The notes beneath the pieces are model-generated. The model was not told the DNA's origin, did no database searches, and worked only from the letters and a program-made list of their open reading frames with translations. Both the position numbers and the translations under genes were made by a program. A stretch of DNA of 34,647 nucleotides, from NCBI GenBank assembly GCA_019347875.1, contig JAHWKN010000008.1, forward strand, positions 1 to 34,647, in the 5' to 3' direction. Source of the stretch: Candidatus Parcubacteria bacterium. Its GTDB lineage: Bacteria; Patescibacteriota; Saccharimonadia; UBA4664; JAHWKN01. Numbering within the stretch: position 1 is the first letter of the stretch; each line of letters begins with the position of its first letter. This document shows, in pieces, positions 16,715 through 34,243 of the stretch.

Positions 16715-16716
16715 GC

Positions 16717-16929: not shown

Positions 16930-16965
16930 GACTTCGATCCGGTTAATGGGTATAAGTTACCAAAA

Positions 16966-16991
16966 AGTCACTAATAAGTCAACTACTGACT
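16966..16991. promoter_or_regulatory. Candidate operator upstream of phd: AGTCA half-sites incl. inverted repeat AGTCA-N5-TGACT
   Basis: agtcactaataagtcaactactgact overlaps a possible -35 (TTGACT on the minus strand). Confidence 0.4.
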
Positions 16992-17017
16992 ATCTCTGCC
17001 CTCATACGTTGTTGCTA

Positions 17018-17338
17018 GTGGATGATAGTCCCAAAGAACTAGATATCTTTTCGCATAGTAAGGCACTACTTGCTAACTCCCAAACGACATTCGCAGTTTT
17101 ACGTTCAATTAGAGAAGAGACCAAGGCAGAGGCTCACCAATGGGGTCGGTCGGGGCATCATGCATATCAAAATATCGGCAAAGGAATCTTTGATGCTTCT
17201 GGTAAAAGTTCGGAGAGCAAGCTTTCGGATGATATTTACGTTTATTTACTCAATAACCTTTCGTGGTTACTATCACAGCGTGCCGACGCTATTGCTAACG
17301 ATACGGCACTGGCAGAGAAGTTAAGAGAAGTTAAATGA
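17018..17338 (+). CDS. Hypothetical protein (about 106 aa), AT-richer than surroundings
   Basis: GTG at 17018, VDDSPKELDIFSHSKALLANSQTTFAVLRSIREETKAEAHQWG...LREVK; the upstream part of the track ORF lies antisense to phd-doc and is probably not coding. Confidence 0.5.
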   Translation: MDDSPKELDIFSHSKALLANSQTTFAVLRSIREETKAEAHQWGRSGHHAYQNIGKGIFDASGKSSESKLSDDIYVYLLNNLSWLLSQRADAIANDTALAEKLREVK

Positions 17339-17527
17339 GAGACAGGCCCATTATTACGGTAAAGCAAGCAGTAGCGACAAGCCAAAATATCGCGTTACTG
17401 TCTCTCAAAGCTCAACCCCCTCCTAGTAAAAGTTTTGGCGTCATACTTGAGACTTAGCAGCCGCAAAAAACCTGCCGGCACTCACAGCCACCTTGCCTTA
17501 AAAGCATAAGTGGTTTAACTTAAGTAC

Positions 17528-18040
17528 ATGGACCCAAAGAGCTTTACACACATCAAGGGCTTTAAAAAGCCTTTACTCGGCGTAGCTGTTGTTTTGGCCT
17601 TGGCGCTGATCGTGGCCGGGCTGCTGTACTGGCGCGTCAGCCTGGGCCGTCAAGTTCAAGCCAGCATCAACCGGTCGATCGGACTGAACGTCAACGGAAA
17701 CTACGATATGTCCCTGGCGGTGTTAAACTCCGCCTACCCGAAAGCGCTGTCGAAGGCCGAGAAAAGGGACGTTTTACTCGCGTTGGCGGCAACTTACAGC
17801 AATAAAGGCGGTCACGAGCAGGCCTTTGGGCAGTACCAAAAGATCGAACAGCTGATCGGTCCTAGCCATGGAACCGCCGAAGGTATGGGCCGGGCGGCCG
17901 AAGCCATGGGCAACAAACAGCTCGCGATCGAGCATTACAAGCGGGCCATCCCGCTGCTGCAATCGAGTAACAGTTTAATGATCGAAGACGAAACCCGCGA
18001 TCTTAAAACCAGCATTGAGCGGCTGGGGGGGCGCCCGTGA
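17528..18040 (+). CDS. Membrane-anchored TPR-like protein (module copy A)
   Basis: N-terminal TM helix LLGVAVVLALALIVAGLLYW; repeats YDMSLAVLNSAYPKA..., HEQAFGQYQKIEQL, KQLAIEHYKRAIPLL. Confidence 0.7.
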   Translation: MDPKSFTHIKGFKKPLLGVAVVLALALIVAGLLYWRVSLGRQVQASINRSIGLNVNGNYDMSLAVLNSAYPKALSKAEKRDVLLALAATYSNKGGHEQAFGQYQKIEQLIGPSHGTAEGMGRAAEAMGNKQLAIEHYKRAIPLLQSSNSLMIEDETRDLKTSIERLGGRP

Positions 18041-19875
18041 AACGAAAACGGCTGATCGGCGGCCTGGTTACCGGCCTACTAGTGCTCGGGGCGCTTTTCT
18101 TTGGTTTTAAAGACACCGTTTTGGCCTATACTAATCAGTTCGGCCGGGCGGAGCGCCGGGGCTACTTCTTTGACGTTTTGGACTGCCAGGGCAGCAGAAT
18201 ATACAACCAGGGTATCTGGGTCAACAACGTCAATGAGTTTGTCGGCTTCATCAAAGACAAGCTCGATAACGGCGGCAAAGACACGACCGGGGCCGAGTTT
18301 ATTATCCTGACCATGCTGGGGTTCAACGGCGGCACCCATGGCAAGTTCGTCAGCCCGGCGGAGCTGGCGGACTGGGAGGCTCGCGTCAGGTACTACGACT
18401 CTCAGGGCTGGGTCAACTACAACCAAGTCGTTTCCTATAACATCAACAGCGCTTATCAGGGTTCGGGCAGTATCCCGTCCCCGGCCTGCCCCAACAACCC
18501 CAACCCCGACGACGCCATGTTCTTCGACGACTCGGGCAGCAAGCCCTCGATCGTGTTCGCACGGCCGGGGACGGTCCCTTACATCATTAAAAAAGACTGC
18601 GGCAATACGCTTGGGGGTAACAGCGGCGGGTTGCAGCCGCCGCCCCCACCGCCGCCTCCGGCCGTCTACAACAACGTCCCCTTGGTATTCGGCACTCCAC
18701 CGGGAGGGCCACGCGCCAACCCCGTGCAGGTAAACGTCGGCACCCCCCTGACGCTAAACATATCCGCCCGTAACACCGGCACCGGTTCCAGTCCCGCTGG
18801 GCGGCTCATCGGGTATGAGCCCAACTCAACTAACCCCCGCGTCACCTTTCCGCACGGCGGGATCCCGGCCGGGAGCACCATTGTCCGGTCCTACCCCTAC
18901 CTGGTGCCCGACCTGCCCGACGGCACCGTCCTATGCTTCGGGGGAGAGGTCAGCCCCGGCAGAGGTCTCAGTGACGGCAGCCCGCCGGCTGTACCCGTTC
19001 ACGTTTACAACCCCGACCCCAACGGGCCCTGCTACAAAGTTTCCAACCCCCGCTATCCCTTCGTTACCACCTCCGGCGGCGACGTCCATGCAGGCGGCGG
19101 GATCGGTTACGGCATCAACTGCGACGCCAACCCGGCCAGCCCCAAGCGGATCCGGGGGCAGTTCAAGAGCGGGGACGGCTCAAAGGCCCAGTACGTCGTT
19201 TCGGCCGGCGGCAACATCAACCAGTTCGGCTCGCGGGACACCCCCACCGGCACCGGCCTGACCTTTAGCAACAGTCTGCCGGGCAATCTGGGCCGCTACG
19301 GCACCGTCTGCCGCCCCGACCTGATCACCGCCGCCGAGCGCTACACCGGCCCAACCGCCGGCTACAGCGGCAGCCTCAGCGCCGCCCCGGGCACGCTGCT
19401 GACCGCCAGCGGCAGCACCACCGTGCCGGCCAGTGTGGTCGGTAACCGCGTCACCTTGTTTGTGCGCGGGGACGTCACCATCACCGGCCCCATCACCTAC
19501 AACCCCGCCCCCGCCAGCCGCGACGCTCAGCCCTCGTTCGGCATCATCGCTACCGGCAACATCTTCATCGCGCCAAGCGTCCAGAGGCTAGACGGGTTCT
19601 ACTACGCCGGCGGCGCCATCGACACCTGCGCCGGGGTTAACATCACCACCAACGCCTCCGCCTGCGGGGCCCAGCTAACCGTCAGGGGATTGATGATGGC
19701 CAACCAGTTTAAGTTTAAGCGTACCGGCCCGGTTGGTACCGGCGGGCCGTTTGCCAGCGAGGTGATTAACTTTACCGGCCTGTTGTACGTGGCCACCCCG
19801 CCGGCCTTTAGCGACGTCATCACCCCCATGGCCGGTTACCCGGGCTACCAGAGCGAGAAGCCCCCGGTGTACTGA
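18037..19875 (+). CDS. Large exported/surface protein with poly-Pro stretch and conserved C-terminal domain (module copy A)
   Basis: Signal/TM MKRKRLIGGLVTGLLVLGALFFGF; GLQPPPPPPPPAVYN; C-terminal domain from NPRYPFVTTSGGDVHAGGGIGYG to YQSEKPPVY, shared with 20649..23234; ATGA overlap with the TPR gene. Confidence 0.75.
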   Translation: MKRKRLIGGLVTGLLVLGALFFGFKDTVLAYTNQFGRAERRGYFFDVLDCQGSRIYNQGIWVNNVNEFVGFIKDKLDNGGKDTTGAEFIILTMLGFNGGTHGKFVSPAELADWEARVRYYDSQGWVNYNQVVSYNINSAYQGSGSIPSPACPNNPNPDDAMFFDDSGSKPSIVFARPGTVPYIIKKDCGNTLGGNSGGLQPPPPPPPPAVYNNVPLVFGTPPGGPRANPVQVNVGTPLTLNISARNTGTGSSPAGRLIGYEPNSTNPRVTFPHGGIPAGSTIVRSYPYLVPDLPDGTVLCFGGEVSPGRGLSDGSPPAVPVHVYNPDPNGPCYKVSNPRYPFVTTSGGDVHAGGGIGYGINCDANPASPKRIRGQFKSGDGSKAQYVVSAGGNINQFGSRDTPTGTGLTFSNSLPGNLGRYGTVCRPDLITAAERYTGPTAGYSGSLSAAPGTLLTASGSTTVPASVVGNRVTLFVRGDVTITGPITYNPAPASRDAQPSFGIIATGNIFIAPSVQRLDGFYYAGGAIDTCAGVNITTNASACGAQLTVRGLMMANQFKFKRTGPVGTGGPFASEVINFTGLLYVATPPAFSDVITPMAGYPGYQSEKPPVY

Positions 19876-19912
19876 GGCTGGGGGAGCGTCTTTGGCGTTC
19901 CGGGTCGGATAG

Positions 19913-20089
19913 CACGGCTACAACCAGACCGGCATTGGCGGCGCAGCGAGCTTTGACAGCCAAGCTTTTAATCGGTTAGTATTTAAGCGTAAGGATTATG
20001 ATGCAGGCAATGTACGCTTGGTGGTACAAAAAGGCTCATCGGCAAAGGGCGGTCCGTCGCTGGTTTGCCAGGTTGGCGGCAGCGGCTAG
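19913..20089 (+). pseudogene. Apparent 3' remnant of a coding gene between the two modules
   Basis: Open frame HGYNQTGIGGAASFDSQAFNRLVFKRKDYDAGNVRLVVQKGSSAKGGPSLVCQVGGSG* with protein-like composition but no start, preceded in frame by TAG at 19910, and abutting the next ATG. Confidence 0.5.
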
Positions 20090-20644
20090 ATGAAAGAGTC
20101 ACCGGTCAGTTCGTACTACCCCCAGGTTGAGATACTCAGAGCTCCTCCTAGGCGGCGGCGGTGGCTGGTCGCAGCGGTGCTGGGGTTGGTTTTGTTGGTA
20201 CTGGGGGGCTGGCTGATCAACCGTCAGGCCAGGGAGGCCGAGAGGGAAGTAAGGTTCAGGCAGGCGGTCCTGTCCGCCGATAAAGCCATTCACGACAAGC
20301 GGTACGATTGGGCGATTGCCTCACTCACCAAGCAGTTGAGCCAAGCCGACGGCCCCGGTCAGCGGTCTCAGGTGACGCAGCGATTGGGAACGGCCTACTA
20401 TTACAAGGGGGACTACAGGCAGGCCATCGAATGGCTGGAAGCTGCTCAGGCGTCCGCCTCCCAACCGGACCCAATGCTAACTCTCAGCATCGCTCAGGCG
20501 GCCGAACGGTTGGGCGACAAGCCTAAAGCCAGCCGGGCCTACCGGCAGGTGATTGAGTACCTAAAAGCGGGCGGCAACCCCGCGGCCAAGGCTAACATCA
20601 AGCTGTACGAAGCCAAGATTAAAGCGCTTTCCGGCGGCGCCTAA
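20090..20644 (+). CDS. Membrane-anchored TPR-like protein (module copy B)
   Basis: TM helix RRRWLVAAVLGLVLLVLGGWLI; TPR-like YDWAIASLTKQLSQ..., GDYRQAIEWLEAAQ, PKASRAYRQVIEYL. Confidence 0.7.
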   Translation: MKESPVSSYYPQVEILRAPPRRRRWLVAAVLGLVLLVLGGWLINRQAREAEREVRFRQAVLSADKAIHDKRYDWAIASLTKQLSQADGPGQRSQVTQRLGTAYYYKGDYRQAIEWLEAAQASASQPDPMLTLSIAQAAERLGDKPKASRAYRQVIEYLKAGGNPAAKANIKLYEAKIKALSGGA

Positions 20645-20648
20645 TCTG

Positions 20649-23234
20649 ATGCTTTGCAGTAAAACCAGTACCAGTAGTTTTAAAAGCCTAGGCGGGGTCT
20701 GGCGGTTGGTCGGGGCTGTTAAACTTTCCCGGCGCTTTGTCTGGTTGGGGCTGGCGGCTGCGGTTGCGGCCCTGGCCGTGCTAGTCCTGCTGGCTGCCGC
20801 CGCTCCACCGGCCGCTTCTGCCCCGGGCGGCTCCGATACTTTGCCCAGAGACGGGGACTTCGCTCCGGCCCCGGCGGATAATCCCGGCTCTTACCTTCTC
20901 AACATTGCTCAAGCGGGTTGCTGTATAGGTGAGAACGGCGTAACCACCAATGCTCCGGAGACGTGGGCGAAGCTATACTATGATCCGTCTAACGGGACCA
21001 CCGTTCGAGCCAGGATTTTCGACGCGCCGTTTTCGAAGTGTTCTTTTCCGCTAGACTTTGCTGTTGAAGAGGAGGGTTTTAGCGGCAGCTGCCCGGGGGG
21101 CGTACCCTCTAATGACCCGAAAAACCGGGTCTGGTACGATTTCTACTCTACCAAAGTTGATCCGACCCGTGCCTTCCTGACCGAAGAGCCCTCTGACCTG
21201 CTGTTTTCGCTTAACAGCCAAACGGGAGGGGTGCTTTGCGCTCTCGCCTGTCCCGGGGCGGTTACCGTGCGGCCAAAGGACTGGAGCGATCCCATTGCCA
21301 TCACTCTTAATCCGATCGCCTCGCCTGCGTCCAGCATCACCGGGCAGTACGTCTTGGTGATGCGGGCCCGGTGGCAGCTGCCGCGTGACGACTCGGGATA
21401 CCGCCACGGCAGGCTTAACAGCTTCAAACTGCAAGTGCTGTCAGGCACGGCCGGCTACTGGGCCAAGGCCGAACCCAGCCCTGTCTCACCGCCGCTGCCG
21501 CCCGCGGACGGCCAGTACGCCATACTCAGTACGGATTTCGACGACACCCGCCGTGACACCCCCTACTGGCGGTTTGACTTTGCTCCGCCCTGCCTGCAGT
21601 ATGATGACCGCCAGGTGGCGCTGCGCTGGAGTGACGCCGACCATTATTTGCGCAGCGACTATCCGCCCGATGGGGGGGAGGGTGACCGCCCGCCCGATTT
21701 TACGCTGTTTGAAATTAATCCCGCCGGCACCCAGACCGCCATTTTGAACGTCAGTGACGCTAACGCCATAGGCGGCCAAGATGAGTACCGTGAGGCGGTG
21801 TTTACGGCCAAGGCCAGACACAAGTACCGGTGGGAGTGGCACAACATCAAGAGCGGCAACGATGTTGTGCTGTGGGTGCCGTACGATAGCTTTTACTTTA
21901 ACTTAAACTGCGGCGAAGTCACATTGAGTAAAGCGGTTGATACCGCCGTGGTGTCTCCGGGGCAGCCGTTCAGGTTTGCCTTAACCGTGCAAAAAAGCGG
22001 CAGCGTTGAGCTGGCCTCAATGACGATCGGGGATAACATCGCCGCTCAGCCCATTGGCTTTAGCGGCTCTTCGCCAAACTCACCGGCCAGCGGCCCGCCA
22101 GGCCTAAGCTGGACGCTGACGCCCGCGCAACTAAGCCAGTTAAACTCAGGGGGTACGGTCCAAATTGCCGTTGACGTGGTCGCGAATGCGGGCGCCTCCC
22201 CCGGCACCTACACCAATACGGCTACCGCTACCGCTACCGACACTTTCGGTGGTTCCATAGCCATCAACCCTAGTAGCGTTAACTACCAGGTGACGAACCC
22301 CCGCTACCCCTACCTCACCAGTACTAAAGGCAACGTCCATGCCGGCGGCGGCATCGGCTTCGGCGTTAACTGCGCGGGCAGCGGCCGCATAACCGGATAC
22401 CGTTCGACGGCTCCAGCTGCCGGCTCCCAAGCCGACTATGTGATATCGGCCGGTAACACCGTTACCCAGTTCGGTTCGGCCGGCGGCGGGGGTGACGGTC
22501 TGACGTTTGGCAACAGTCCCAGTTCGGGCGGCTACCACCCTTTGTGCCGGCCGGATTTGCCGGTGATGGCCGAAGCTTACATCATTAAATATCCGGGACG
22601 GGTTAAAACCTTTTTTCCGCTAGCTGATCCGAACTTTTTCACCCTGCGAACCACCGGCCCTATCTGCGGCAGCCCGCTGCTGTCTGATCTGACCGACCCG
22701 CTGCGTTACTGTATCCACAACGGTGATATGGTGGTGGCGAACGGAAACGTGTCGCTGCCCGGGTTCCCGGGGCTGCTGCCTTTAACCGTGCAGCGGCGGT
22801 TCACGCTGTACGTCCGCGGCGACGTCACCGTGACCAGGAACATCGTCTACGCCGGCGGAGCTTACTCGCGGGAGCGGTTGCCTTCGTTCGGCTTGATCGC
22901 CAACAACCTCTACGTCACTCCAGGGGTAGACAAACTGGACGGCTTTTACTTTGCCAAAGGAGAGTTTAACAGTTGCCAAAACCCGGCCGCACCGATCGAT
23001 ATCGCCACCAACGCCAGTGCCTGCGCCCCACCGCTGACTCTGAACGGTTTGGCCATGGCCAACCGGTTCCGGTTTAAGCGCACCGGCCCCGTTGGTACCG
23101 ACGGGCCGTTTGCCAGCGAGACAGCTAACTTTACCGGCCTGTTGTACGTGGCCACCCCGCCGGCCTTCAGCGACGCCATCACCCCCCTGGGTGGCTACCC
23201 GAGGCACCAGAGGGAGAAGCCGCCGGTGTACTAG
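20649..23234 (+). CDS. Large exported/surface protein with DUF11-like region and the same conserved C-terminal domain (module copy B)
   Basis: N-terminal hydrophobic segment; VTLSKAVDTAVVSPGQPFRFALTVQKSG...GTYTNTATATATDTFGG; C-terminal domain NPRYPYLTSTKGNVHAGGGIGFG...HQREKPPVY. Confidence 0.75.
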   Translation: MLCSKTSTSSFKSLGGVWRLVGAVKLSRRFVWLGLAAAVAALAVLVLLAAAAPPAASAPGGSDTLPRDGDFAPAPADNPGSYLLNIAQAGCCIGENGVTTNAPETWAKLYYDPSNGTTVRARIFDAPFSKCSFPLDFAVEEEGFSGSCPGGVPSNDPKNRVWYDFYSTKVDPTRAFLTEEPSDLLFSLNSQTGGVLCALACPGAVTVRPKDWSDPIAITLNPIASPASSITGQYVLVMRARWQLPRDDSGYRHGRLNSFKLQVLSGTAGYWAKAEPSPVSPPLPPADGQYAILSTDFDDTRRDTPYWRFDFAPPCLQYDDRQVALRWSDADHYLRSDYPPDGGEGDRPPDFTLFEINPAGTQTAILNVSDANAIGGQDEYREAVFTAKARHKYRWEWHNIKSGNDVVLWVPYDSFYFNLNCGEVTLSKAVDTAVVSPGQPFRFALTVQKSGSVELASMTIGDNIAAQPIGFSGSSPNSPASGPPGLSWTLTPAQLSQLNSGGTVQIAVDVVANAGASPGTYTNTATATATDTFGGSIAINPSSVNYQVTNPRYPYLTSTKGNVHAGGGIGFGVNCAGSGRITGYRSTAPAAGSQADYVISAGNTVTQFGSAGGGGDGLTFGNSPSSGGYHPLCRPDLPVMAEAYIIKYPGRVKTFFPLADPNFFTLRTTGPICGSPLLSDLTDPLRYCIHNGDMVVANGNVSLPGFPGLLPLTVQRRFTLYVRGDVTVTRNIVYAGGAYSRERLPSFGLIANNLYVTPGVDKLDGFYFAKGEFNSCQNPAAPIDIATNASACAPPLTLNGLAMANRFRFKRTGPVGTDGPFASETANFTGLLYVATPPAFSDAITPLGGYPRHQREKPPVY

Positions 23235-23311
23235 CCGTGCCGCGACCGCCAAACCAAATTAAACAATTGCGTATTCACAAAGTAATAGTTCTTATGCTAA
23301 ACTAACGACAA

Positions 23312-24352
23312 ATGGGATTACTAGATCACGAAACCAACTACTTCGGGCTAGATATCGGCTCTACCGCTATCCGCCTAGTGCAGCTGCGCCAGGGCGGCGG
23401 CAAACCGGTTTTGGTGACGTACGCAGCGGTAGCGGTGCCGGCGGGCCAGACGGTTAGCGACTCTCAGCTTGACCAGGACAAGGTGGCAGCGGTGATCCGC
23501 CAACTGGTCAAAGACAGCCGGGTCAGCACCAAAAACGTGGTGGCGGGGCTGCCCTCCGGTAGTTTGTTTGCAGCGGTCATTACCACCCCCAAGCTAACTC
23601 ACACGGAGCTCAGTAAGGCCATCAAGTTCCAGGCCGATCAGTATGTGCCGATGGCGCTCGACCAGGTCAAGCTCGACTGGTCGGTGGTGGGGGCGGGCGC
23701 CAACGATAACGAGCTGGAGGTCCTGCTGGTCGCGGCCCCCAACACCAGTACCGCCAAGTACGCCAACATTTTGGAAAAGGCCGGGCTGGAGGTGGTGGTG
23801 CTGGAGGCCAACGCCATGGCGGTAGCACGGGCCGTGGTGCCTCCGAGTGACCTGGCGGTAATCGTGCTCGACATGGGCAACACCTCCAGCGACCTGACCG
23901 TAATTTACCAAAACTCGCCCCGATTGATGCGTTCCATCCCGGTCGGGGGGAACACGTTCGTGCAGTCGGTCGCCCAGAACCTGGGCCTGGACCGAACCCA
24001 GGCGGAGCAGTTTACCTACCGCTTTGGTTTAACTCAAACCAAGCTGGAGGGTCAGGTGTTCCGGGCCGTGAAGCCCAGCATCGACCAGCTGGTGGGGGAG
24101 ATTCAAAAATCGAGCAAGTTCTTCTTGGGCCGCTACGAAGGCGTTAAGCTGGAAAAAATCGTCCTAACCGGCGTGACCTCTTCCCTGCCGGAGCTGCCGG
24201 CCTACTTAGCCACCGCCACCGGTTTGCCGGTAGAGATCGGTAACGCTTGGGTCAACGTGGCCTACCCGGCCAGCATTCAGGACAAGCTGATGTCCGCCAG
24301 CAGCCAGTACGCTGCCGCTTCGGGACTAGCCCAAAGGATGTTTGTTAAATGA
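23312..24352 (+). CDS. pilM: Type IV pilus assembly protein PilM
   Basis: YFGLDIGSTAIRLVQLRQ; VVVLEANAMAVARAVVP...VIVLDMGNTSSDLTVIY; IVLTGVTSSLPEL. Confidence 0.92.
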   Translation: MGLLDHETNYFGLDIGSTAIRLVQLRQGGGKPVLVTYAAVAVPAGQTVSDSQLDQDKVAAVIRQLVKDSRVSTKNVVAGLPSGSLFAAVITTPKLTHTELSKAIKFQADQYVPMALDQVKLDWSVVGAGANDNELEVLLVAAPNTSTAKYANILEKAGLEVVVLEANAMAVARAVVPPSDLAVIVLDMGNTSSDLTVIYQNSPRLMRSIPVGGNTFVQSVAQNLGLDRTQAEQFTYRFGLTQTKLEGQVFRAVKPSIDQLVGEIQKSSKFFLGRYEGVKLEKIVLTGVTSSLPELPAYLATATGLPVEIGNAWVNVAYPASIQDKLMSASSQYAAASGLAQRMFVK

Positions 24353-24395
24353 CGGCTCGAGGGGAAATCATAATGGCTAAAACGGGAACACTCTA

Positions 24396-25007
24396 ATGAC
24401 CGCCAAAATTAACTTACTGCCGGATATTCGCCAAGCCAAGGTGCGCGCGCGGCAGCAGCGCCGTCTGGCCGCTGGTATCGGCACCATGGTGTGTACTTTG
24501 TCGATTGGAGCGGTGGTGGTGCTGGCGCTGGTGATGGCGGCCCAAAAGCTGCGCCTGGCCGCGCTCCAAAACAGCATCAACGCCAGCCAAAACCAGCTGC
24601 AGTCGGAAAGTAATCTGAAGGACATGTTGACGGTGCAGCAGCACCTGGCGGCTTTGCCCGGGCTGTACGACCAGCGCGCTTACATTACGCGCTTTCTTGA
24701 CACGCTGGTGAGCGTTTCACCCACCCAGTTTGCCGTCTCCAGTTTGGAGATCGATGCCCAAAACAACCTCAAGTTTACCGGCCAGGCCCAGAACTACAAC
24801 TTGGTTACAAAGTTTACCCAAGCCCTGGAGGCCTCTAACCTGACGCTGGGCCCCGCCGCCAGCCCCTCTAACCCGCCCCACTTTACCAACGTCAACATCT
24901 CCAGCGTATCGCTTGATAGCGATAACAAGGTCGCATTTTCACTGAGCGCCACCATGGCGCCGCAAGTCACCAATGGAGCTACAGGAGTAAACAATGGCGT
25001 CCGCTAA
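24396..25007 (+). CDS. pilN: Type IV pilus assembly protein PilN-like
   Basis: KINLLPDIRQAKVRARQQRRLAAGIGTMVCTLSIGAVVVLALVMAAQ; position after pilM. Confidence 0.82.
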   Translation: MTAKINLLPDIRQAKVRARQQRRLAAGIGTMVCTLSIGAVVVLALVMAAQKLRLAALQNSINASQNQLQSESNLKDMLTVQQHLAALPGLYDQRAYITRFLDTLVSVSPTQFAVSSLEIDAQNNLKFTGQAQNYNLVTKFTQALEASNLTLGPAASPSNPPHFTNVNISSVSLDSDNKVAFSLSATMAPQVTNGATGVNNGVR

Positions 25008-25641
25008 GAAGCAAAGTAACCTTTCAAACAACCACTTTATCCTGGTTATGGTGCTGGTGTCGCTGGTGACGGTGGTACTAAGCGTAGTAATCGGGCGCTC
25101 GCTGGTCAGCGGGATACTGCTAAACAACAAAGTCATCGCTAAAAAAGTGACGGCCGACAACCAGCTGAAGGACAACCTGGCGGCCGTCGAGCAGCTGCGG
25201 CAGGAGTACGACCAGCTGGGAGGCCGTCGCCGGCTGATCCTGGAGTCTTTGCCGGTTAAGCGCGACGTTCCCGGCCTAGCCAGCACCCTGGAGCTGATAG
25301 CCGGTACCAGTGGCTTAAAGCTGAAATCGATTACTCCGGTTGAAGCCGCCGCCGACACCGCTCCCGCCCCCCCCGCCGCCGACGGCAACGCCGCCGCTCC
25401 CGCCCCCGCCGCCTCAACGGGCGAAGACCAGCCCACCCCTTATCAGGTAGCTTTGAGCGTCGAGGGAAACTACACCAGCTTGGTTAATTTTTTGCGCAAC
25501 CTGGAGCTGTCGGCCCGTCCGGTCAGGGTCACCGCCCTGACGGCCACCGGCAACAGCGCCTCGATGAGCGCCGACCTGCAGCTTAGCAGCTACTGGCAGG
25601 CGGAAGCGGACCTAACCCCTAAGACGGAGGTCGTCCAGTGA
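24994..25641 (+). CDS. pilO: Type IV pilus assembly protein PilO-like
   Basis: N-terminal TM helix, coiled coil, GNYTSLVNFLRNLELSARPVRVTALTATG typical of PilO; overlaps pilN. Confidence 0.82.
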   Translation: MASAKKQSNLSNNHFILVMVLVSLVTVVLSVVIGRSLVSGILLNNKVIAKKVTADNQLKDNLAAVEQLRQEYDQLGGRRRLILESLPVKRDVPGLASTLELIAGTSGLKLKSITPVEAAADTAPAPPAADGNAAAPAPAASTGEDQPTPYQVALSVEGNYTSLVNFLRNLELSARPVRVTALTATGNSASMSADLQLSSYWQAEADLTPKTEVVQ

Positions 25642-25898
25642 AGAAGAAAGATGTCGTATATCTGGCCCTGGCCGGGGTTATCTTTATGGCGGCCGGGTTT
25701 TTGGCCTCAACTAAGCTTGCTCCCTCAGGCGGTCAGGCCGGTAAGCAGGTCAGCGTGGAGGTGGTTGAGCCGATCAGCCCGAACTACGACCGCGCGGCGC
25801 TTGAGCAGTTAGCCGATAAGGACCGCGCCCGCGACTTTTCGGTCACCAACGATCTAAACAGCGGGCTGGGCAACAAAGCACCGTTCGGGCCGTTCTAG
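25638..25898 (+). CDS. Small pilus-locus membrane protein (86 aa)
   Basis: ATGA overlap with pilO; single TM VVYLALAGVIFMAAGFLAS. Confidence 0.65.
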   Translation: MKKKDVVYLALAGVIFMAAGFLASTKLAPSGGQAGKQVSVEVVEPISPNYDRAALEQLADKDRARDFSVTNDLNSGLGNKAPFGPF

Positions 25899-25936
25899 CC
25901 CCGGTGCCAAGTAATGCACCACACTAAGGGGGCGCC

Positions 25937-27715
25937 GTGCTGACCGTCGAAAACCAGCAAAAGGTCGAACATCTGATACTGGAGTCCAAACTGGTCTCCG
26001 CGTCCGAGCTGGAGGCGCTCAAGCTTGAGGCCATCCAGCAAAACACCCCGCTGATCGCCTTACTGGGCCAGCGGCAGCTGATAGGGGACGAGGAGCTGGC
26101 CAAGATTCAAGCTAAGGTAGCCGGGGTCCCTTACGTTAACCTGGCCGACGTCCCCATCCAGGCCGACGTCTTAGCGCTGTTGCCAAAATCGTTCGCCCAG
26201 AACTATAAAGCGGTGCCTTTCGGCTTGATGCAGGGGCGCCTGGCCATGGCGATGCTCGACCCGACCAACGTGCAGGCGGTGGACTTTTTGGCGCGCAAGA
26301 CCGGCAAAGGGTTGGTCGTCTACATGGCTTCGCAGTCCAGCATCGAGCGGGTGCTGACTCAGTATCCCAACAACGTCACCTCTGACGTCAACGCCGCCAT
26401 CCAGAGCGTTAACGTCAACCAAAAAAGCGCCGAAAAGGCCAAGCCGACGACGGCTAAGGGGTTGCAGACGCTGGTTCAGGACGCTCCGATTACCCGGGCG
26501 TTAAACGCCATTTTAGATTACGCCACCCAGTCCGGCGCTTCCGACATCCACATCGAGCCGCGCGAAAAGGAGCTCAAGATCCGCTACCGGGTAGACGGAC
26601 TGCTGCAAGACACCATGACGCTGCCCAAGTCGGTTGAGCCGGCGCTGGTGTCGCGGATTAAGATTTTAGCCAACTTAAAGATCGATGAGCACCGCGTGCC
26701 TCAAGATGGGCAGTTCCAGATCCAGTCCGGCAGTAAGGAGGTTGACCTGCGTATCGCTATCGCGCCGGTGGTGTGGGGAGAGCAGATCGTCATCCGGCTG
26801 CTCGACAAGTCGGACAACGTCCTAACGCTCGACGGGCTTGGTTTTAGGGGGCCGGGGCTGCGTCTGATTGAAGAGGGAATCAGAAAGCCTCACGGCATGA
26901 CGCTCTCGACCGGCCCGACCGGCTCCGGCAAGAGCACCACGCTGTATGCGGCCATTCACGCCATTAAGGACGTCTCGATTAACATCGTCACGCTGGAAGA
27001 CCCGGTGGAGTACAAGATGGACGGCATCAACCAGATCCAGGTCAACGGCGACGTCGGCTTAACCTTTGCTTCCGGTTTGCGCTCGATCTTGCGGCAGGAT
27101 CCCAACGTGGTGATGGTGGGTGAGATCCGCGACCGGGAGACGGCCGACCTGGCGGTTCAGGCGGCCCTAACCGGGCACGTTGTTTTGTCGACGCTGCACA
27201 CCAACTCGGCGGCCGGGGTCTTGCCGCGCCTGTTAGACATGGGCATCGAGCCGTTTTTGATCTCCTCGACCGTCAACACGGTGATCGGGCAGCGGCTGGT
27301 GCGCCGGGTGTGCCAAAAGTGCAAGACCGAGTCCCCGGCCAACGAAACCGAGGTGGCCTCGATCAACGCTTCATTGGGGGGTATTTTGCCCAAAGACAAA
27401 AGCGAAGTTAAGGCCGTTAGCGAAGAGTTGGGCTACGATGACTTGCCGATTGCCGGTCAAAGCGCTTATACTCTTTATAGAGCTAATGGTTGCCCGGCAT
27501 GTACTAAGGGTTACCGGGGGCGACTGGGGATCTGCGAGACGTTCTCGCTCAACCCCGCCATGGAAAAGCTGCTGGCGTCTCATGCGACCACCGGCGAGGT
27601 CCAGGCCCAGGCTCAGAAAGACGGTATGATTACGATGAAGCAAGACGGCTACTTGAAGGCGCTTTCCGGGTTAACGACGCTGGAAGAGGTAGCCCGGGTG
27701 GCGGCGGACTTTTAA
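25937..27715 (+). CDS. pilB: Type IV pilus assembly ATPase PilB (GspE family)
   Basis: SGASDIHIEPREKELKIRYRVDGLLQDTM; GPTGSGKSTTLYAAI; ILRQDPNVVMVGEIRDRETADLAVQAALTGHVVLSTLHTNSA; CQKC...CPAC zinc motif. Confidence 0.96.
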   Translation: MLTVENQQKVEHLILESKLVSASELEALKLEAIQQNTPLIALLGQRQLIGDEELAKIQAKVAGVPYVNLADVPIQADVLALLPKSFAQNYKAVPFGLMQGRLAMAMLDPTNVQAVDFLARKTGKGLVVYMASQSSIERVLTQYPNNVTSDVNAAIQSVNVNQKSAEKAKPTTAKGLQTLVQDAPITRALNAILDYATQSGASDIHIEPREKELKIRYRVDGLLQDTMTLPKSVEPALVSRIKILANLKIDEHRVPQDGQFQIQSGSKEVDLRIAIAPVVWGEQIVIRLLDKSDNVLTLDGLGFRGPGLRLIEEGIRKPHGMTLSTGPTGSGKSTTLYAAIHAIKDVSINIVTLEDPVEYKMDGINQIQVNGDVGLTFASGLRSILRQDPNVVMVGEIRDRETADLAVQAALTGHVVLSTLHTNSAAGVLPRLLDMGIEPFLISSTVNTVIGQRLVRRVCQKCKTESPANETEVASINASLGGILPKDKSEVKAVSEELGYDDLPIAGQSAYTLYRANGCPACTKGYRGRLGICETFSLNPAMEKLLASHATTGEVQAQAQKDGMITMKQDGYLKALSGLTTLEEVARVAADF

Positions 27716-27731
27716 GCTCAGGAGGACCTAG

Positions 27732-28802
27732 ATGGAAAAAACTGCCCCTAAAATCGAACTGTTACTGGAGCAGGTCATTAAGCTGGAAGCCTCCGACCTG
27801 CACCTGCAGGTGGGGGTGCCGCCGATGCTGCGGGTTGACGGCGCGCTGAAGGCGGTAGAAAACGCGGCCGAGCTGAGCGACGACGACATCGAAAAGCTGA
27901 TATTCCCGATTTTGGATGAGGACCAGAAAGAGATCCTGGTCAAAGATAAAGAGGTTGATTTCTCGTTTGCTTTTGGCGACTTCGGGCGCTTCCGGGTGAA
28001 CGCCTTCCACGAGCGGGGCAACCTGGCGGCCGCCCTGCGCCTGATCCCGACCAAGCTGCGCACGCTGGAAGAGCTGGGTATGCCCAAAACGGTCCTTAGC
28101 TTTACCGACTACCCGCGGGGGCTGGTGCTGGTAACCGGGCCGACCGGTTCCGGCAAAAGCACTACGCTGGCGGCCATGGTCGACAAGATCAACAGCGAAA
28201 AGGCGGTGCACATACTAACGATCGAAGACCCGATCGAGTACGCCCACCACAGCCAAAAGAGCATCGTGGTGCAGCGCGAGATCCATTACGACACCTACTC
28301 GTTCGGGGCGGCGCTGCGCTCGAGTCTGCGCCAGGATCCGGACGTGGTGCTGATCGGCGAGATGCGCGACCTGGAGACGATTGCCGCCGCCATCACCATC
28401 GCCGAAACCGGCCACTTGGTGCTGGCGACGTTGCACACCAACTCGGCCTCACAGTCGGTCGACCGCATGATCGACGTCTTTCCGCCGCACCAGCAGCAGC
28501 AGATCAGGGTGCAGCTGGCCGGTATTTTGCAGGGCATCTGCTCGCAGCGCCTGGTGCCGATGATCGGGGGCGGGCGGATCGCTGCGGCCGAGATTTTGGT
28601 GGCCACTGGGGCGGTGCGTAACATTATCCGCGAAGGCAAAAGCCACCAGCTGGACGCCGTCATCCAGACCGGCGGCCAGTACGGCATGCAGAGCATGGAC
28701 AAAACGCTGGTCGGACTGATCCAGGCCGGCAAGATCTCCTACGACGAGGCCAAGAACGTGGCCATCGACCTGGCCGAGCTAGACAGGCTGATGAGAGGGT
28801 AG
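27732..28802 (+). CDS. pilT: Type IV pilus retraction ATPase PilT
   Basis: ASDLHLQVGVPPMLRVDGAL; GPTGSGKSTTLAAMVDKIN; LRQDPDVVLIGEMRDLETIAAAITIAETGHLVLATLHTNSA; FPPHQQQQIRVQLA. Confidence 0.97.
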   Translation: MEKTAPKIELLLEQVIKLEASDLHLQVGVPPMLRVDGALKAVENAAELSDDDIEKLIFPILDEDQKEILVKDKEVDFSFAFGDFGRFRVNAFHERGNLAAALRLIPTKLRTLEELGMPKTVLSFTDYPRGLVLVTGPTGSGKSTTLAAMVDKINSEKAVHILTIEDPIEYAHHSQKSIVVQREIHYDTYSFGAALRSSLRQDPDVVLIGEMRDLETIAAAITIAETGHLVLATLHTNSASQSVDRMIDVFPPHQQQQIRVQLAGILQGICSQRLVPMIGGGRIAAAEILVATGAVRNIIREGKSHQLDAVIQTGGQYGMQSMDKTLVGLIQAGKISYDEAKNVAIDLAELDRLMRG

Positions 28803-28835
28803 AGGGGTGATAACCGCCATAAGGAGACTAGCCAC

Positions 28836-30068
28836 ATGATCACTTTTGTCTACAGCGCCAAGCACATGAAGACCGGCGAGAGCGTTAAAGCCGAGGTGCA
28901 GGCCGAGAACGCCCACGCGGCGGCCAAGCTGTTAATGGCTCAAAACCTGTTTCCGATCACCGTTACCAACAAAGCCGACCAAAAGGGGCTGGCGGCCATG
29001 TTCGGACTGGGCAGCCGAATCTCGACCAAAGACCGCATCATCTTCACCCGGCAGCTGGCCACCCTGATTAACGCCGGGTTGCCGCTGCTGCAGTCGCTGC
29101 GGACGGTGAAGGGCCAGATCTCCAACCCGGCGCTGCAGGATGTGGTGCAAAACGTCAGCAACAGCGTAGAGGGCGGCAGCACGCTGTCGGCCGCCTTCGC
29201 TGAGCACCCCAAGGTGTTTAACCAGATTTATGTGGCGCTGATTGCCGCCGGAGAAACCTCCGGATCGCTCGATAAAACCATGGAGCGCATCGCCGATCAG
29301 CAGGAAAAAGACGCCGCCATAGTGTCTAAAATCCGCGGGGCTTTGATCTACCCCATCATCGTTTTGATGGTTATCTTGGGCGTGCTGGCGTTCATGCTGA
29401 CCACCGTTTTGCCGCAGATCGGCCAGCTTTACGCCGACCTAGATAAGCCGCTGCCGTTTTTGTCCGCGGTCCTAGTTAGCCTGTCGCACTTTATCATCAA
29501 GTTCTGGTGGCTGGTACCGGTTTTACTGGTGATGGCCGGGCTGGGCCTGCGCAACCTGCTTAAGACAGAGCAGGGTAAGCGGTTCGCGGATCGGATGAAG
29601 GTTAAGCTGCCCCTGTTCGGGCGGATTTTTCGCAAGGTTTACATGGCCCGCTACAGCCGCACGCTGGGCACCCTGCTGGGCAGTGGCATCCCGCTGTTGG
29701 AGGCGCTGGACATCGTCAGAAAAGCCATCAACAACGTTTTGCTGGAAGAAAGCATTGAGCGCTCCATGGGAGAGGTCAAGGGCGGCAAGGCGCTGTCGGA
29801 GACGCTGGAGGACGACCCGCAGTTTCTGGTGTTGGTGCCGCAAATGATTAAGATCGGTGAGCAGTCCGGGGCGATCGACGAGATGCTGGGGCGCGTGGCG
29901 ACGTTTTACGAAAACGAGGTTGATACCGAGGTTAAAAACCTCTCCACCACCATCGAGCCGCTGCTGATGGTGGTTTTGGGGGTGCTGGTGGCCCTGGTCA
30001 TCGCGGCGGTGCTGTTCCCGGTTTACAGCCTGGTCGGCGGCGGCGGGCTGGACAACGCCGGCCGCTAG
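28836..30068 (+). CDS. pilC: Type IV pilus inner membrane platform protein PilC
   Basis: ISTKDRIIFTRQLATLINAGLPLLQSL...; MARYSRTLGTLLGSGIPLLEALDIV; IGEQSGAIDEMLGRVATFYENEV. Confidence 0.95.
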   Translation: MITFVYSAKHMKTGESVKAEVQAENAHAAAKLLMAQNLFPITVTNKADQKGLAAMFGLGSRISTKDRIIFTRQLATLINAGLPLLQSLRTVKGQISNPALQDVVQNVSNSVEGGSTLSAAFAEHPKVFNQIYVALIAAGETSGSLDKTMERIADQQEKDAAIVSKIRGALIYPIIVLMVILGVLAFMLTTVLPQIGQLYADLDKPLPFLSAVLVSLSHFIIKFWWLVPVLLVMAGLGLRNLLKTEQGKRFADRMKVKLPLFGRIFRKVYMARYSRTLGTLLGSGIPLLEALDIVRKAINNVLLEESIERSMGEVKGGKALSETLEDDPQFLVLVPQMIKIGEQSGAIDEMLGRVATFYENEVDTEVKNLSTTIEPLLMVVLGVLVALVIAAVLFPVYSLVGGGGLDNAGR

Positions 30069-30102
30069 CCCGGGCCGTAGTTCCATAACGGTCAGAAAAA
30101 GC

Positions 30103-30132
30103 TTGACGTGGTTAAAGCATAAGTGCAATAAT
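30103..30132 (+). promoter_or_regulatory. putative separate promoter for the major pilin (TTGACG-N18-AATAAT)
   Basis: Located in the pilC-pilin gap; the pilin has an AAGAAGGTG SD. Confidence 0.45.
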
Positions 30133-30173
30133 ACCAGTAAAGCCGATTAATTAACTAAGAAGGTGAACAAAGC

Positions 30174-30599
30174 ATGCTAAAGCAATTACTAAATAAGGAG
30201 CGGGGTAACTCGAAAGGGTTCACCTTGATCGAGATCGTGCTGGTTTTGGCCATCGCGGGGCTGATTTTGTTGATCGTGTTCCTGGCGGTGCAGGGCGCGC
30301 AGCGTAGCCGGCGCGACGGCCAGCGTAAGAACGACGCTGCCCGGATTTTGTCTCAGGCCGAGCAGTTCGCTTCCAACAACAACGGCCGCTATCCGACAGC
30401 CTGGACCGACACCAGCTTCCAGACGGCTTATGTTGCTCCGCTTAACATCACCCCTCCCGGCGGCGGTGTTTACACCTACGCGGGCGGTTATCCGGCCGCC
30501 TGTCCTGCCCCCAACACCGTCTACATGCGGCCGCTAGGCCGCGGTGTTCAGGTCAAGATGTGTCTGGAGACCGCTTTCCAGGAGCTGACCAACAGCTAA
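30174..30599 (+). CDS. Type IV major prepilin
   Basis: Prepilin motif KGFTLIEIVLVLAIAGLILLIVFLAVQGAQRSRRDGQRKNDAARI. Confidence 0.93.
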   Translation: MLKQLLNKERGNSKGFTLIEIVLVLAIAGLILLIVFLAVQGAQRSRRDGQRKNDAARILSQAEQFASNNNGRYPTAWTDTSFQTAYVAPLNITPPGGGVYTYAGGYPAACPAPNTVYMRPLGRGVQVKMCLETAFQELTNS

Positions 30600-30617
30600 G
30601 CCTAAAGGCTACTAGCT

Positions 30618-30646
30618 AAAAAAGACCCCATGTTGGGGTCTTTTTT
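30618..30646 (+). terminator. Rho-independent terminator after the pilin gene
   Basis: aaaaaagacccca-tgt-tggggtctttttt. Confidence 0.93.
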
Positions 30647-30654
30647 AATTGGTC

Positions 30655-30669
30655 TGCTATAATTTGCTT
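30655..30669 (+). promoter_or_regulatory. Extended -10 TGc-TATAAT ending 6 nt before the pilD ATG
   Basis: TG at 30655-30656, TATAAT at 30658-30663, ATG at 30670. Confidence 0.55.
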
Positions 30670-31533
30670 ATGCTTACACTAGCGCTTGTGACGGTGCTCG
30701 GCCTGCTCGTCGGCAGCTTCATCAACGCCGCGGTCTGGCGGCTGCACCAACAGTCAGCGGGCCGTTCGACAGGCTCAGGGCCGACCGGTCAGACGTCAAA
30801 CGTCAAAGGTCAGTCGGATGTCAGTATCACCCACGGCCGTTCGATGTGTCCGCGCTGTCGCCACCGGCTGGCGGCCACCGACCTGATCCCGCTGCTTAGC
30901 TGGGTCTGGTTGCGCGGCCGCTGCCGCTACTGCCAGGCTGCAATACCAGCCCAATACCCGCTGGTGGAGCTTTTAACCGCCGGGCTGTTCGCATGGTCTT
31001 ACTCCTCACTCCTCACTACTCACTACTCACCACTCGGCGTGGTTGACTTCGCGTTTTGGCTGTACTTTTTGACGGTACTGATCGTTCTGGCGCTGTATGA
31101 CGCTCGCTGGATGCTCCTGCCCGACGTTGTGCTGCTGCCCGCTATCGTGGTGGCGTTACTGCAGCTGCCGGTTAGCCTGGTGCTTGGCCAGCCGTTCGGC
31201 GGCGTCTGGTCGGCGCTGCTGGCGGCCGCCTTGGCCGGAGGCGGCTTTTACGCCATCGCCTGGGTGACGCGCGGTAAGGGTATGGGCGGGGGAGACATCA
31301 AGCTGGCCTTTTTGATGGGGTTGCTGTTGGGGCTGGGTAAAACGGGCGTCGCCTTGTTCGTGGCCTTTATGTCCGCGGCGCTGGTGGGGGTGGCCCTGGT
31401 GGCCGTAGCCCGGCTTATGCGGCACCGGCGGCCCAAGTACATCGCTTTCGGCCCGTTCCTGATCGCCGGGACGGTGATCGCCAAGCTGCACGGGGCGGCG
31501 ATTATAGAGTGGTATTTAAGGGGGCTGTATTAG
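30670..31533 (+). CDS. pilD: Prepilin peptidase (A24 family)
   Basis: GLLVGSFINAAVWRL; CPRCRH...CRYC zinc motif; GKGMGGGDIKLAFLMGLLLG active site; start moved to 30670 (track start 30649 lies over the terminator/promoter). Confidence 0.94.
   Translation: MLTLALVTVLGLLVGSFINAAVWRLHQQSAGRSTGSGPTGQTSNVKGQSDVSITHGRSMCPRCRHRLAATDLIPLLSWVWLRGRCRYCQAAIPAQYPLVELLTAGLFAWSYSSLLTTHYSPLGVVDFAFWLYFLTVLIVLALYDARWMLLPDVVLLPAIVVALLQLPVSLVLGQPFGGVWSALLAAALAGGGFYAIAWVTRGKGMGGGDIKLAFLMGLLLGLGKTGVALFVAFMSAALVGVALVAVARLMRHRRPKYIAFGPFLIAGTVIAKLHGAAIIEWYLRGLY
30788..30815 (+). repeat. Heptanucleotide-period tract inside pilD (different heptamer)
   Basis: GTCAGAC GTCAAAC GTCAAAG GTCAGTC. Confidence 0.85.
30998..31032 (+). 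repeat. Heptanucleotide-period tract inside pilD
   Basis: CTTACTC CTCACTC CTCACTA CTCACTA CTCACCA. Confidence 0.85.
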
Positions 31534-31561
31534 CCGAAGGGATGTTATAATCAAAACAGTT

Positions 31562-32182
31562 ATGTTAAAAAGTAACGCGCAGTCTGGGTTTACGCTGATC
31601 GAGGTGGTTATGGTGCTGGCCATTTCCGGCCTGCTTCTTATAATGGCGTTTTCGGGGCAAAGAGAGGTGCGCGAGCGGGCCCAGTTTTCGGCCGCCGTGG
31701 AGCAAGTTAAGAACAACGTCGTGAAGGTCAAAAACGAGGCGAACACCACCGTCCATCTCGACGCCCTTGGTACGGGGGACAGGCTGTTTTTCGGCAAGCG
31801 TATCAGGTTCACCCCCAACAGCTCGAGCTTGGAGGTGACCACTCTGACCGCTGACCGCAACGACCTGAGCGCAACGCTGGTAGAGTCACCGGTTGAATAC
31901 ACCATCGATGTCCCTTACGGGGTGCGCTACGCCGACCCTCAGCGGCGCTCCGTCATCTTTACCCGCCGCGAGAGCGACGGGCAGCTTATCACCTACACGC
32001 CGGATACGCCTGTTTGGACGCCGCCGCCTCCGGTTAACTTTTCCCGCGATCCCGACCGGTACAGGCCGGATGACGCCTCGCTGCGGGGAGACTTGGTTTT
32101 GCGGTTCGAGGATGACGCCGGGCGCGCCGCTACGGTGACCGTCAACGGCCTAACCGGCGCGGTCACCAGGGTGATCAACTGA
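31562..32182 (+). CDS. Type IV pilin-like (GspH/FimT-type minor pilin)
   Basis: SGFTLIEVVMVLAISGLLLIMAFSGQREVRERAQFSAAVEQV. Confidence 0.85.
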   Translation: MLKSNAQSGFTLIEVVMVLAISGLLLIMAFSGQREVRERAQFSAAVEQVKNNVVKVKNEANTTVHLDALGTGDRLFFGKRIRFTPNSSSLEVTTLTADRNDLSATLVESPVEYTIDVPYGVRYADPQRRSVIFTRRESDGQLITYTPDTPVWTPPPPVNFSRDPDRYRPDDASLRGDLVLRFEDDAGRAATVTVNGLTGAVTRVIN

Positions 32183-32694
32183 TGAGAGCGCACGCGCAAC
32201 GGGGCGATACGCTGATCGAGGTGGTGATGGCGCTGGCCATTTTGTCGAGCGTGCTGCTGGCCTCCTTTAACGTGGCGACCGCCGCTTTCCGGCAGGGCCG
32301 GTCGGCCCAGGAACGCACCCAGGCGGTGAACTTGATCCAGGAGCAGGCCGAGGGGCTGCGCAACATTCGTGACACCCGCAGCTGGGGCATGTTTAGAGGC
32401 GCGGTTTTTGGCGCCGGCACCTTTCACATGAGCGACGCCGGCGGCTCGTGGCAGGTCAACTCCGGTATGCTTAACAACGGCATTTACCGGATCTCGGTTC
32501 ATGCCAACGGCAGCGTCGGCGCCACTACCGGGATCACGGCGGTAGAGGCGGGCGAAAAAATCAGGTTCGACATTGCGGCCGAGTGGGACAACGCCGGTGT
32601 CGGGCCGCCCAACCGCACCGTCATTAGCACCTATCTCGTCAATCTGGACGGTATGGGCCCGCGTGACTGCTCGGCCGGAGGGGCGGGATGTTAA
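32182..32694 (+). CDS. Minor pilin-like protein (PilV/GspI-type)
   Basis: GDTLIEVVMALAILSSVLLASFNVATAAFRQGRSAQERTQAVNLIQEQAEGLRNIRD; TGATG overlap. Confidence 0.8.
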   Translation: MRAHAQRGDTLIEVVMALAILSSVLLASFNVATAAFRQGRSAQERTQAVNLIQEQAEGLRNIRDTRSWGMFRGAVFGAGTFHMSDAGGSWQVNSGMLNNGIYRISVHANGSVGATTGITAVEAGEKIRFDIAAEWDNAGVGPPNRTVISTYLVNLDGMGPRDCSAGGAGC

Positions 32695-33269
32695 AGCGTG
32701 AGGAGGGCTTTACCTTGATAGAACTGTTGCTGGCCATGGCGCTGTTTAGTTTGATGCTGCTGGTGGTGATTGGCGGGTTTATAAACATCGTGCGGATGTA
32801 CCAGGCTGGCTTGGCCTCGCGTAACACCCAGCAAAACGCCCGCTCGGGTCTGGAAGAGATGGTGCGCACGGCACGCGGCGCCTCGGCGGCCGAGGTGGTG
32901 CCGACGGGGTTGTGCCTGCGGGGCGACAGCGCCACCAGTATTTTTTACGTGCAGTCCGGGCAGCTGCGGCGGGGGCTGATCAATCCGGCCGCCGCCTCCG
33001 GATGCGATCCGGCCAACGTCCAGGGCGCCCCCACCGTGCTGTCTTCGGGTGACGTCAGGGTTCTGAGCTTAACGGCCACGTCCATTCCGGCGGGGAGTGC
33101 GCATCCTGACACCGGCTTTAGCCCGGACAGTGTCCGGATGGAGCTGCGGGTAGCTACCGCCAACCCCGGCCTCTTAGCCGGCAGCAACTGCATCACCGGC
33201 CAAGGCGCCCAGTTTTGCTCGGTCAGCAACCTCACCAGTACGGTTAGCTTGCGGGGGACGGCCCAATGA
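32688..33269 (+). CDS. Minor pilin-like protein (PilW/GspJ-type)
   Basis: EEGFTLIELLLAMALFSLMLLVVIGGFINIVRMYQAGLASRNTQQNARSGLEEMVRTAR. Confidence 0.82.
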   Translation: MLKREEGFTLIELLLAMALFSLMLLVVIGGFINIVRMYQAGLASRNTQQNARSGLEEMVRTARGASAAEVVPTGLCLRGDSATSIFYVQSGQLRRGLINPAAASGCDPANVQGAPTVLSSGDVRVLSLTATSIPAGSAHPDTGFSPDSVRMELRVATANPGLLAGSNCITGQGAQFCSVSNLTSTVSLRGTAQ

Positions 33270-34243
33270 GCCGGCCAAGTTTCTTGCAGGATCAAAAGGG
33301 GGTTGTGGCGCTTGCCACCACCATTATCGTTAGCTTGCTGCTGCTGATCATTACCACCGCCATGGTCAGCTTAATGATGGGAGAGCTGCGCCAGGCGGAG
33401 GACGCCGACCAGTCGATCCGCGCCTACTACGCGGCCGAGGCCGGGGCTGAAGAGGCGCTGCTGGAGCTCAAGCGGGCGATTAACAGCGGCGGCGCTTTGT
33501 CGTTTTCCGGTAACTGTGTGGCCAGTAGCGTGGCCGACATCGCTTACACCTGTAAGCGCATTACCGCCACCAGCAACACGCTGGAAAATAAATCCGCCCG
33601 CGACCGCTCGCAGCAGTTTGAAATCCCCGCCTCGGCGGGCTTTAACCGCATTGATCTCAGCTGGAACATCAGCGGCTTTGAGCAGGACCCGTTGGCGCCG
33701 AATCCGTTTCCGTTTATTTCAAACTTCCCCCCTGGAGCGAGCTGGAACTTTCCGGCGGTGATGGAGCTAAGTGACGTGACCTATCCGAGCGGTACGTTTA
33801 CGGCCGGCAACATCAACCTCCAGACGCTGGTGTTGCGGCCAAACCGTACCGGCGGGGCCGCTACGGGCATAGGGGCGGTCGGCCCGGTTTCGGTACGGTG
33901 CACCGCCAACGTGCCCCAGAACGATCCCTACAACTGCCGCATCAGCATCACCGGCTTTAACGCCGGTCAAAACCACATTCTGCGCTTGCGCCCGCGTTAT
34001 GCCGGGGCCCACTACAAGCTGGAGTTTTACAACAACGGCACGAGGGTGAGCGTGCCCGACCAGAACGCGGCGGTGGACGTGACCGCCCGCGCCGGGGACG
34101 TGTTCCGCCGCATCAGGATCAACGTGCCGATCCGCTCCGGCGCGGCTTCCGGCCTGGATCACGTTTTGTTTAGCGACACCGATATTTGTAAGAATTTTGA
34201 GGTGCGGGATGGTAATAACAGCGCGGTTGGGATGTGCCCCTAA
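33266..34243 (+). CDS. PilX-like minor pilin/assembly protein
   Basis: QKGVVALATTIIVSLLLLIITTAMVSLMMGELRQAEDADQSIRAYYAAEAGAEEALLELKR. Confidence 0.78.
   Translation: MSRPSFLQDQKGVVALATTIIVSLLLLIITTAMVSLMMGELRQAEDADQSIRAYYAAEAGAEEALLELKRAINSGGALSFSGNCVASSVADIAYTCKRITATSNTLENKSARDRSQQFEIPASAGFNRIDLSWNISGFEQDPLAPNPFPFISNFPPGASWNFPAVMELSDVTYPSGTFTAGNINLQTLVLRPNRTGGAATGIGAVGPVSVRCTANVPQNDPYNCRISITGFNAGQNHILRLRPRYAGAHYKLEFYNNGTRVSVPDQNAAVDVTARAGDVFRRIRINVPIRSGAASGLDHVLFSDTDICKNFEVRDGNNSAVGMCP

Follow-up and report, generated by a model that had tools for sequence, protein, structure and literature searches.

PilY1 is a large, Sec-exported non-pilin protein that is encoded with type IV pilus (T4P) genes, and that combines a variable N-terminal part with a conserved C-terminal part. 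A second point of reference is ComZ of T. thermophilus; according to the authors who describe it, its solenoid comes closest in fold to an ice-binding protein, and they propose a tip position for ComZ (PMC6561018). Among the Saccharibacteria, the T4P-2 adhesin of TM7x is PilX2 in the proposal of Grossman et al., who give the first T4P locus of this strain as TM7x_00415–00475 (13 genes; PMC12206443); TM7x_00415 is pilM, according to the gene/tag list (PMC10768705). Wang et al. give the T4P genes of S. epibionticum as SEML1_0104–0116, a set of 13 genes (PMC10633639). It is known that Saccharibacteria and other Patescibacteria need T4P for host recognition.

Here, we characterize a locus in a 34,647 bp stretch of DNA (hereafter, the window). 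The stretch corresponds to contig C39 in a draft genome of 789 kb, and the related loci come from Saccharibacteria. We propose that the locus encodes a new accessory, of the T4P tip or of the envelope, that is based on a nameless domain family.

A two-gene module upstream of the pilus operon

The features of interest in the window are as follows.

17528..18040 (+): TPR protein A, 170 aa; N-terminal transmembrane (TM) anchor, then TPR domain
18037..19875 (+): exported protein A, 612 aa; signal-peptide-like N-terminus, N-terminal domain, poly-proline linker, conserved C-terminal domain
18637..18660 (+): poly-proline stretch of eight prolines in exported protein A, starting at residue 201 (PPPPPPPP)
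19033..19872 (+): conserved C-terminal domain, copy A (HMM match, E=3e-97; AF2)
19345..19767 (+): beta-rich core of the copy A domain, confidently modelled (AF2 block pLDDT 75–97); approximate bounds
19855..19872 (+): C-terminal tail EKPPVY-COOH, copy A
19876..20089 (+): inter-copy spacer, 214 bp
19953–19982: promoter-like TTGACA-18-TAGTAT in the inter-copy spacer (consensus match only)
20090..20644 (+): TPR protein B, 184 aa; single N-terminal TM
20649..23234 (+): exported protein B, 861 aa; N-terminal part unlike that of A, one DUF11, C-terminal domain as in A
21918..22241 (+): DUF11 / NPCBM_assoc-like Ig-type domain in protein B (Pfam)
22284..23231 (+): conserved C-terminal domain, copy B (HMM match, E=3e-90)
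23214..23231 (+): C-terminal tail EKPPVY-COOH, copy B
23312..34243 (+): T4P operon: pilM, pilN, pilO, orf86, pilB, pilT, pilC, pilin, pilD, three pilins, PilX-like

An initial annotation of the window had described a tandemly duplicated module, in which each copy pairs a single-TM TPR protein with a large exported protein, the exported proteins have unlike N-terminal parts and a common C-terminal domain, and a pilus operon follows. This description holds up throughout. All four open reading frames are present at 17528–18040, 18037–19875, 20090–20644 and 20649–23234, with TPR gene A and exported gene A overlapping by 4 bp. Pfam TPR models match both small proteins (TPR B exceeds the Pfam cut-off, TPR A lies just below it), which are distant relatives of one another (24% identical, E=5e-5). 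The C-terminal domains of A and B are 48% identical over 331 aa (E=1e-73), and match at the DNA level too. Their N-terminal parts differ: the poly-proline stretch occurs in A, and DUF11 (E=2.5e-5) in B only; the N-terminal domain of A is common to about 12 relatives. Finally, A and B group next to each other in the tree (SH-aLRT 86), as expected of a tandem duplication.

The pilus operon lies directly downstream of the module, starting 77 bp after exported gene B, and is recognizable from Pfam matches to PilM_2 (E=2e-48), PilN, PilO and N_methyl pilins. A second promoter-like match (23274–23303; consensus only) precedes pilM. Between pilO and pilB lies orf86 (25638–25898, +; 86 aa), which has no Pfam match and whose position is kept in many relatives. 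On the other side of the module, between it and ychF, there is a gene for a Fic/DOC-family protein (16328–16714, −; PF02661, E=3e-16).

Distribution of the module and its linkage to type IV pilus genes

The duplication matters less than the single-copy module itself, which almost all members of the class carry and which is tied to the T4P operon. A scan of genome contigs with a single protein gave no matches and was replaced by a PilM-anchored scan of genomes. Searched with an HMM (profile A1), the C-terminal domain proved to be widespread in Patescibacteria: it is present in 267 of 295 Saccharimonadia genomes and, in a phylum-wide sample, in about a third of the genomes, although it scores lower beyond the class. 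The domain is not detectable in the remaining 28 class genomes, yet a PilM profile matches all 295. One candidate, a 25,343-aa open frame in genome G012 (contig C2), was rejected as an artefact of Ns from contig position 320,001 (N run 13702–19901 of locus L043).

In 89 of the 93 genomes for which both genes are listed, the end of the domain is followed on the same strand by pilM, at a distance of 43–1233 bp (median 66); this count selects on the domain and is possibly biased, and hence the analysis was repeated with pilM as the sole anchor. Anchored in this way, the domain gene is found immediately upstream of pilM in 66 of 73 named Saccharibacteria loci, and one gene further in two more. Among other Patescibacteria, it lies directly upstream of pilM in 9/20 loci, and beside pilN/O in one more.

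The association goes beyond mere gene order, because it survives three kinds of change: (i) in other Patescibacteria classes, the flanking genes differ while adjacency to pilM persists, (ii) in a lineage whose pil operon has been divided (L051), the domain gene precedes pilN, with pilM elsewhere, and (iii) in one genus in which the module has moved from pilM, the TPR and exported pair lies beside GFTxxE prepilin genes at 3 of 12 loci (L226, L228 and L229). Linkage of the module to the T4P is thus well supported, and the exported protein is very probably a functional part of the T4P system.

Other arrangements also occur. Three gut-type-looking loci (L180, L182 and L183) have no domain gene beside pilM, and extra copies are found away from pil genes at L041. 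In an animal-associated-looking genus (L222–L235) the domain gene is usually away from pilM, and this location may be the reason that the gene has been overlooked. At some of the loci L180, L182, L183 and L222–L235, two TPR genes flank the domain gene. A literature search of main texts, largely of open-access papers, found no papers on the locus tags neighbouring the published T4P inventories. A near-universal neighbour of adhesin-like architecture appears to have been omitted from these inventories.

The exported protein and its TPR partner

Under a simple rule based on hydrophobicity and the cleavage site, 108 of 110 complete in-class exported proteins have a signal-peptide-like N-terminus, while neither a C-terminal TM nor a prepilin motif was seen in any of the 110. 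With the sortase motif LPxT[GA] also absent from window proteins A and B, a sortase-anchored adhesin was rejected. The two halves of the protein differ sharply in conservation: the C-terminal domain is detectably similar in 76% of pairs, and the N-terminal part in 15.6%. Within the C-terminal domain, Cys 531 and Cys 543 (protein A numbering) are invariant across a 68-member alignment, suggesting a disulphide. The protein ends in a tail of the form LPPx[FYL]-COOH (typically ELPPRF, SLPPVL or EKPPVY), which AF2 models as disordered; proline at tail position −3 is found in 117/124 cases in the class, as opposed to 2/22 outside it.

The initial annotation could not place the C-terminal domain in a named family, and neither could we: the window proteins' domain has no significant Pfam or NCBIfam match, and searches with 19, and then 68, family members gave single weak matches only and no characterized family. 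Comparison with PHROG gave nothing useful, and comparison with all PDB chains gave nothing by single sequence and, by profile (A5), nothing at E≤10. Membership of two named families was not supported. These are (i) DUF3494 / ice-binding-like adhesive (PF20597, pAdhesive_15), matched weakly by one of 19 members (E=0.004) and by none of 68, and (ii) DUF7305 (PF23981), for which 0/61 genomes exceeded the curated cut-off.

AF2 modelling of the domain from 68 sequences produced a confident beta-rich core (blocks with pLDDT 75–97) within a model of mean pLDDT 69.9, while the full-length model of exported protein A is of low confidence (pLDDT 47.7). Foldseek searches of the PDB placed ComZ (6qvi) first, followed by DUF3494-type ice-binding proteins, none of them significant (E≥0.09); among viral models there was no match at E≤0.001. 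With E=0.09, TM 0.25–0.31 and prob 0.93–1.00, the match to ComZ is a weak one, and we treat it as a lead on the fold, with no claim of homology. The pairing of ComZ with an ice-binding fold is the same as that made in the ComZ paper (PMC6561018). From the AF2 model and these Foldseek matches, the conserved C-terminal domain is predicted to be a beta-solenoid.

The pairing with a TPR gene, tested by a neighbourhood count, recurs elsewhere. The initial annotation had named two findings that would speak against its reading, a domain match to a well-characterized family and a lack of such recurrence, and neither was obtained. Of 109 in-class domain genes, 76 are preceded, at no more than 150 bp, by an ORF of 90–270 aa with a single N-terminal TM, as compared with 23/388 control ORFs from the same loci; in 68 of the 76 cases the gap is between −20 and +20 bp. 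(This non-circular ORF count, together with Pfam, was used in place of our own TPR profile, A4, which contains many of the ORFs tested on it.) Pfam TPR_2 matches 28 of 50 family TPR proteins at E≤0.01. About 30% of in-class domain copies have no adjacent TPR-type gene: the link is strong but non-obligate, and the TPR gene is not strictly needed in cis. Positively charged residues concentrate before the TM (mean K/R count of 4.8 before versus 1.5 after, with an excess before the TM in 48/50 TPR proteins), and hence the TPR domain is predicted to be extracytoplasmic, on the outer side of the membrane, as in a type II membrane protein. Extended C-terminal peptides are frequent ligands of TPR domains, making the tail of the exported protein an obvious candidate.

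The duplication in the window is one of several. Tandem copies also occur at L050, L125, L133, L154, L159 and L213, and several of the pairs are mutually nearest in the tree. Two patterns are of interest. Firstly, the ends of A and B are unusually alike at silent positions: over the last ~75 codons, third positions of the four-fold type agree at 29/37 sites, versus about 31/67 upstream, which points to partial gene conversion. Secondly, the adjacent exported ORFs at L050 (G023; 6487–8397 and 8450–12229) have C-terminal domains that are 94% identical, and no N-terminal similarity, an apparent case of N-terminal replacement. Together, these patterns suggest that the constant end is homogenized by conversion while the free end diverges. 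Outside the class, L199 (G303) carries two copies about 4 kb apart (8270–10171 and 14026–15915) with identical C-terminal domains.

Proposed role and comparison with known systems

Our main reading, to which we give a probability of roughly one half, is that the exported protein is an adhesive T4P tip protein with a PilY1-like role, from a family unrelated to PilY1, and with a membrane TPR protein as its docking factor. Tip location, adhesion, binding of the tail by the TPR domain and handover to minor pilins are all inferred. The exported protein would leave via Sec, and signal peptidase I would cleave it. The fixed end, for docking, would consist of the conserved C-terminal domain together with the LPPx[FYL] tail. 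The TPR protein from the same transcript, membrane-anchored and extracytoplasmic, would hold this end first (acting as chaperone or docking platform) and then hand it over to the minor-pilin complex, which the exported protein would cap. The long, variable N-terminal part would point outward and determine the binding target of the pilus. Duplication, N-terminal replacement and C-terminal homogenization, as in the window, would diversify specificity. A more detailed version, which we put forward tentatively and regard as rather doubtful, is a Patescibacteria-specific tip-delivery system in which the TPR protein binds the free LPPx[FYL]-COOH tail and loads the beta-solenoid adhesin onto the minor-pilin tip, and in which N-terminal replacement sets the host specificity of these episymbionts. 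The module offers one gene family and a C-terminal tail to manipulate where genetics now exist; host range could be predicted from sequence, provided that specificity resides in the N-terminal part.

The chief rival to a tip adhesin is an envelope exit component: the exported and TPR proteins would form a pilus guide that spans the wall or surface layer, in place of the PilP/PilQ secretin and TPR pilotin, which are missing from these bacteria. The position of the domain gene beside pilMNO fits this arrangement, given that pilPQ adjoins pilMNO in other bacteria. PilQ, moreover, has not been found in CPR bacteria (PMC6744442), and the TPR partner recalls Tgl/PilW, albeit at scores far below the cut-off. 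We nevertheless consider an exit component unlikely: the window proteins have no Pfam match to the secretin domain of PilQ, and the N-terminal part varies in length and sequence far beyond what is expected of a channel. Recurrent tandem duplication with N-terminal replacement, and relocation of the module beside pilin genes in some genomes, also argue against a guide.

Alternatively, the exported protein could be a free-standing secreted or surface adhesin that is co-expressed with pili and forms no part of them. Variable N-terminal regions with DUF11-type domains, a signal peptide and the extra copies away from pil genes in some genomes (L041) are all compatible with such an adhesin; however, nothing in the way of a sortase motif (A and B) or a C-terminal TM (family-wide) would retain it at the cell, and adjacency to pil genes is kept across classes and operon rearrangements. 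We judge this quite unlikely. Of the two options raised in the initial annotation—a surface system or a pilus-associated one—the class-wide tie to the T4P operon favours the second.

A tip-located DNA receptor for competence, with a ComZ-like role rather than one in cell adhesion, seems improbable. The nearest fold is that of ComZ, a DNA-binding tip pilin, and S. epibionticum is naturally competent (PMC10633639), but the fold match is weak, the essentiality of the S. epibionticum T4P is unrelated to competence, and N-terminal variability suits diverse targets better than DNA. Lastly, conserved gene order alone, with no pilus role, would be in keeping with the conserved ychF/tlyA/efp/ssb/rpsF flank within the class, and is strongly disfavoured by loci outside the class, where the flanks change and the pilM neighbour remains, and by the cases of operon splitting and relocation.

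The module invites comparison with five groups of known proteins. Like PilY1/PilC of Pseudomonas, Myxococcus and Neisseria, the exported family is large, Sec-exported, non-pilin and encoded with T4P genes, and joins a variable N-terminal part to a conserved C-terminal one; it differs in its predicted beta-solenoid C-terminus, its TPR partner gene and its position upstream of pilM, and searches of 19 and 68 family members against Pfam gave no match to the PilY1 beta-propeller domain. Tgl, PilW and PilF resemble the smaller protein of the module in being TPR proteins tied to a T4P system. They are, however, lipoprotein pilotins that assist a secretin, whereas the module's TPR protein has a single-pass TM anchor and no secretin to assist; identity with PilW/Tgl was rejected on scores of 24.1 against a cut-off of 154 bits and 12 against 225 bits (TIGR02521, NF033762).

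ComZ, the best Foldseek match, has a beta-solenoid resembling ice-binding proteins, a fold that is predicted for the exported family, and a tip position has been proposed for ComZ; the DUF3494 ice-binding and pAdhesive_15 domains have the beta-solenoid fold as well. ComZ is a pilin fold with an inserted solenoid, whereas members of the exported family carry a Sec signal and lack a pilin motif—a difference to be read with the caveat that ComZ also lacks pilin sequence motifs, as do the exported proteins (prepilin motif in 0/110). Finally, PilX1 and PilX2 of Nanosynbacter lyticus TM7x are likewise T4P proteins of Saccharibacteria; they carry extra C-terminal domains, lack a predicted PilD site and have been suggested to act as adhesins. 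They differ in being pilin-fold proteins with a jelly-roll or RCC1 propeller, and the window carries a PilX-like gene of its own (33266–34243) besides the two genes for exported proteins.
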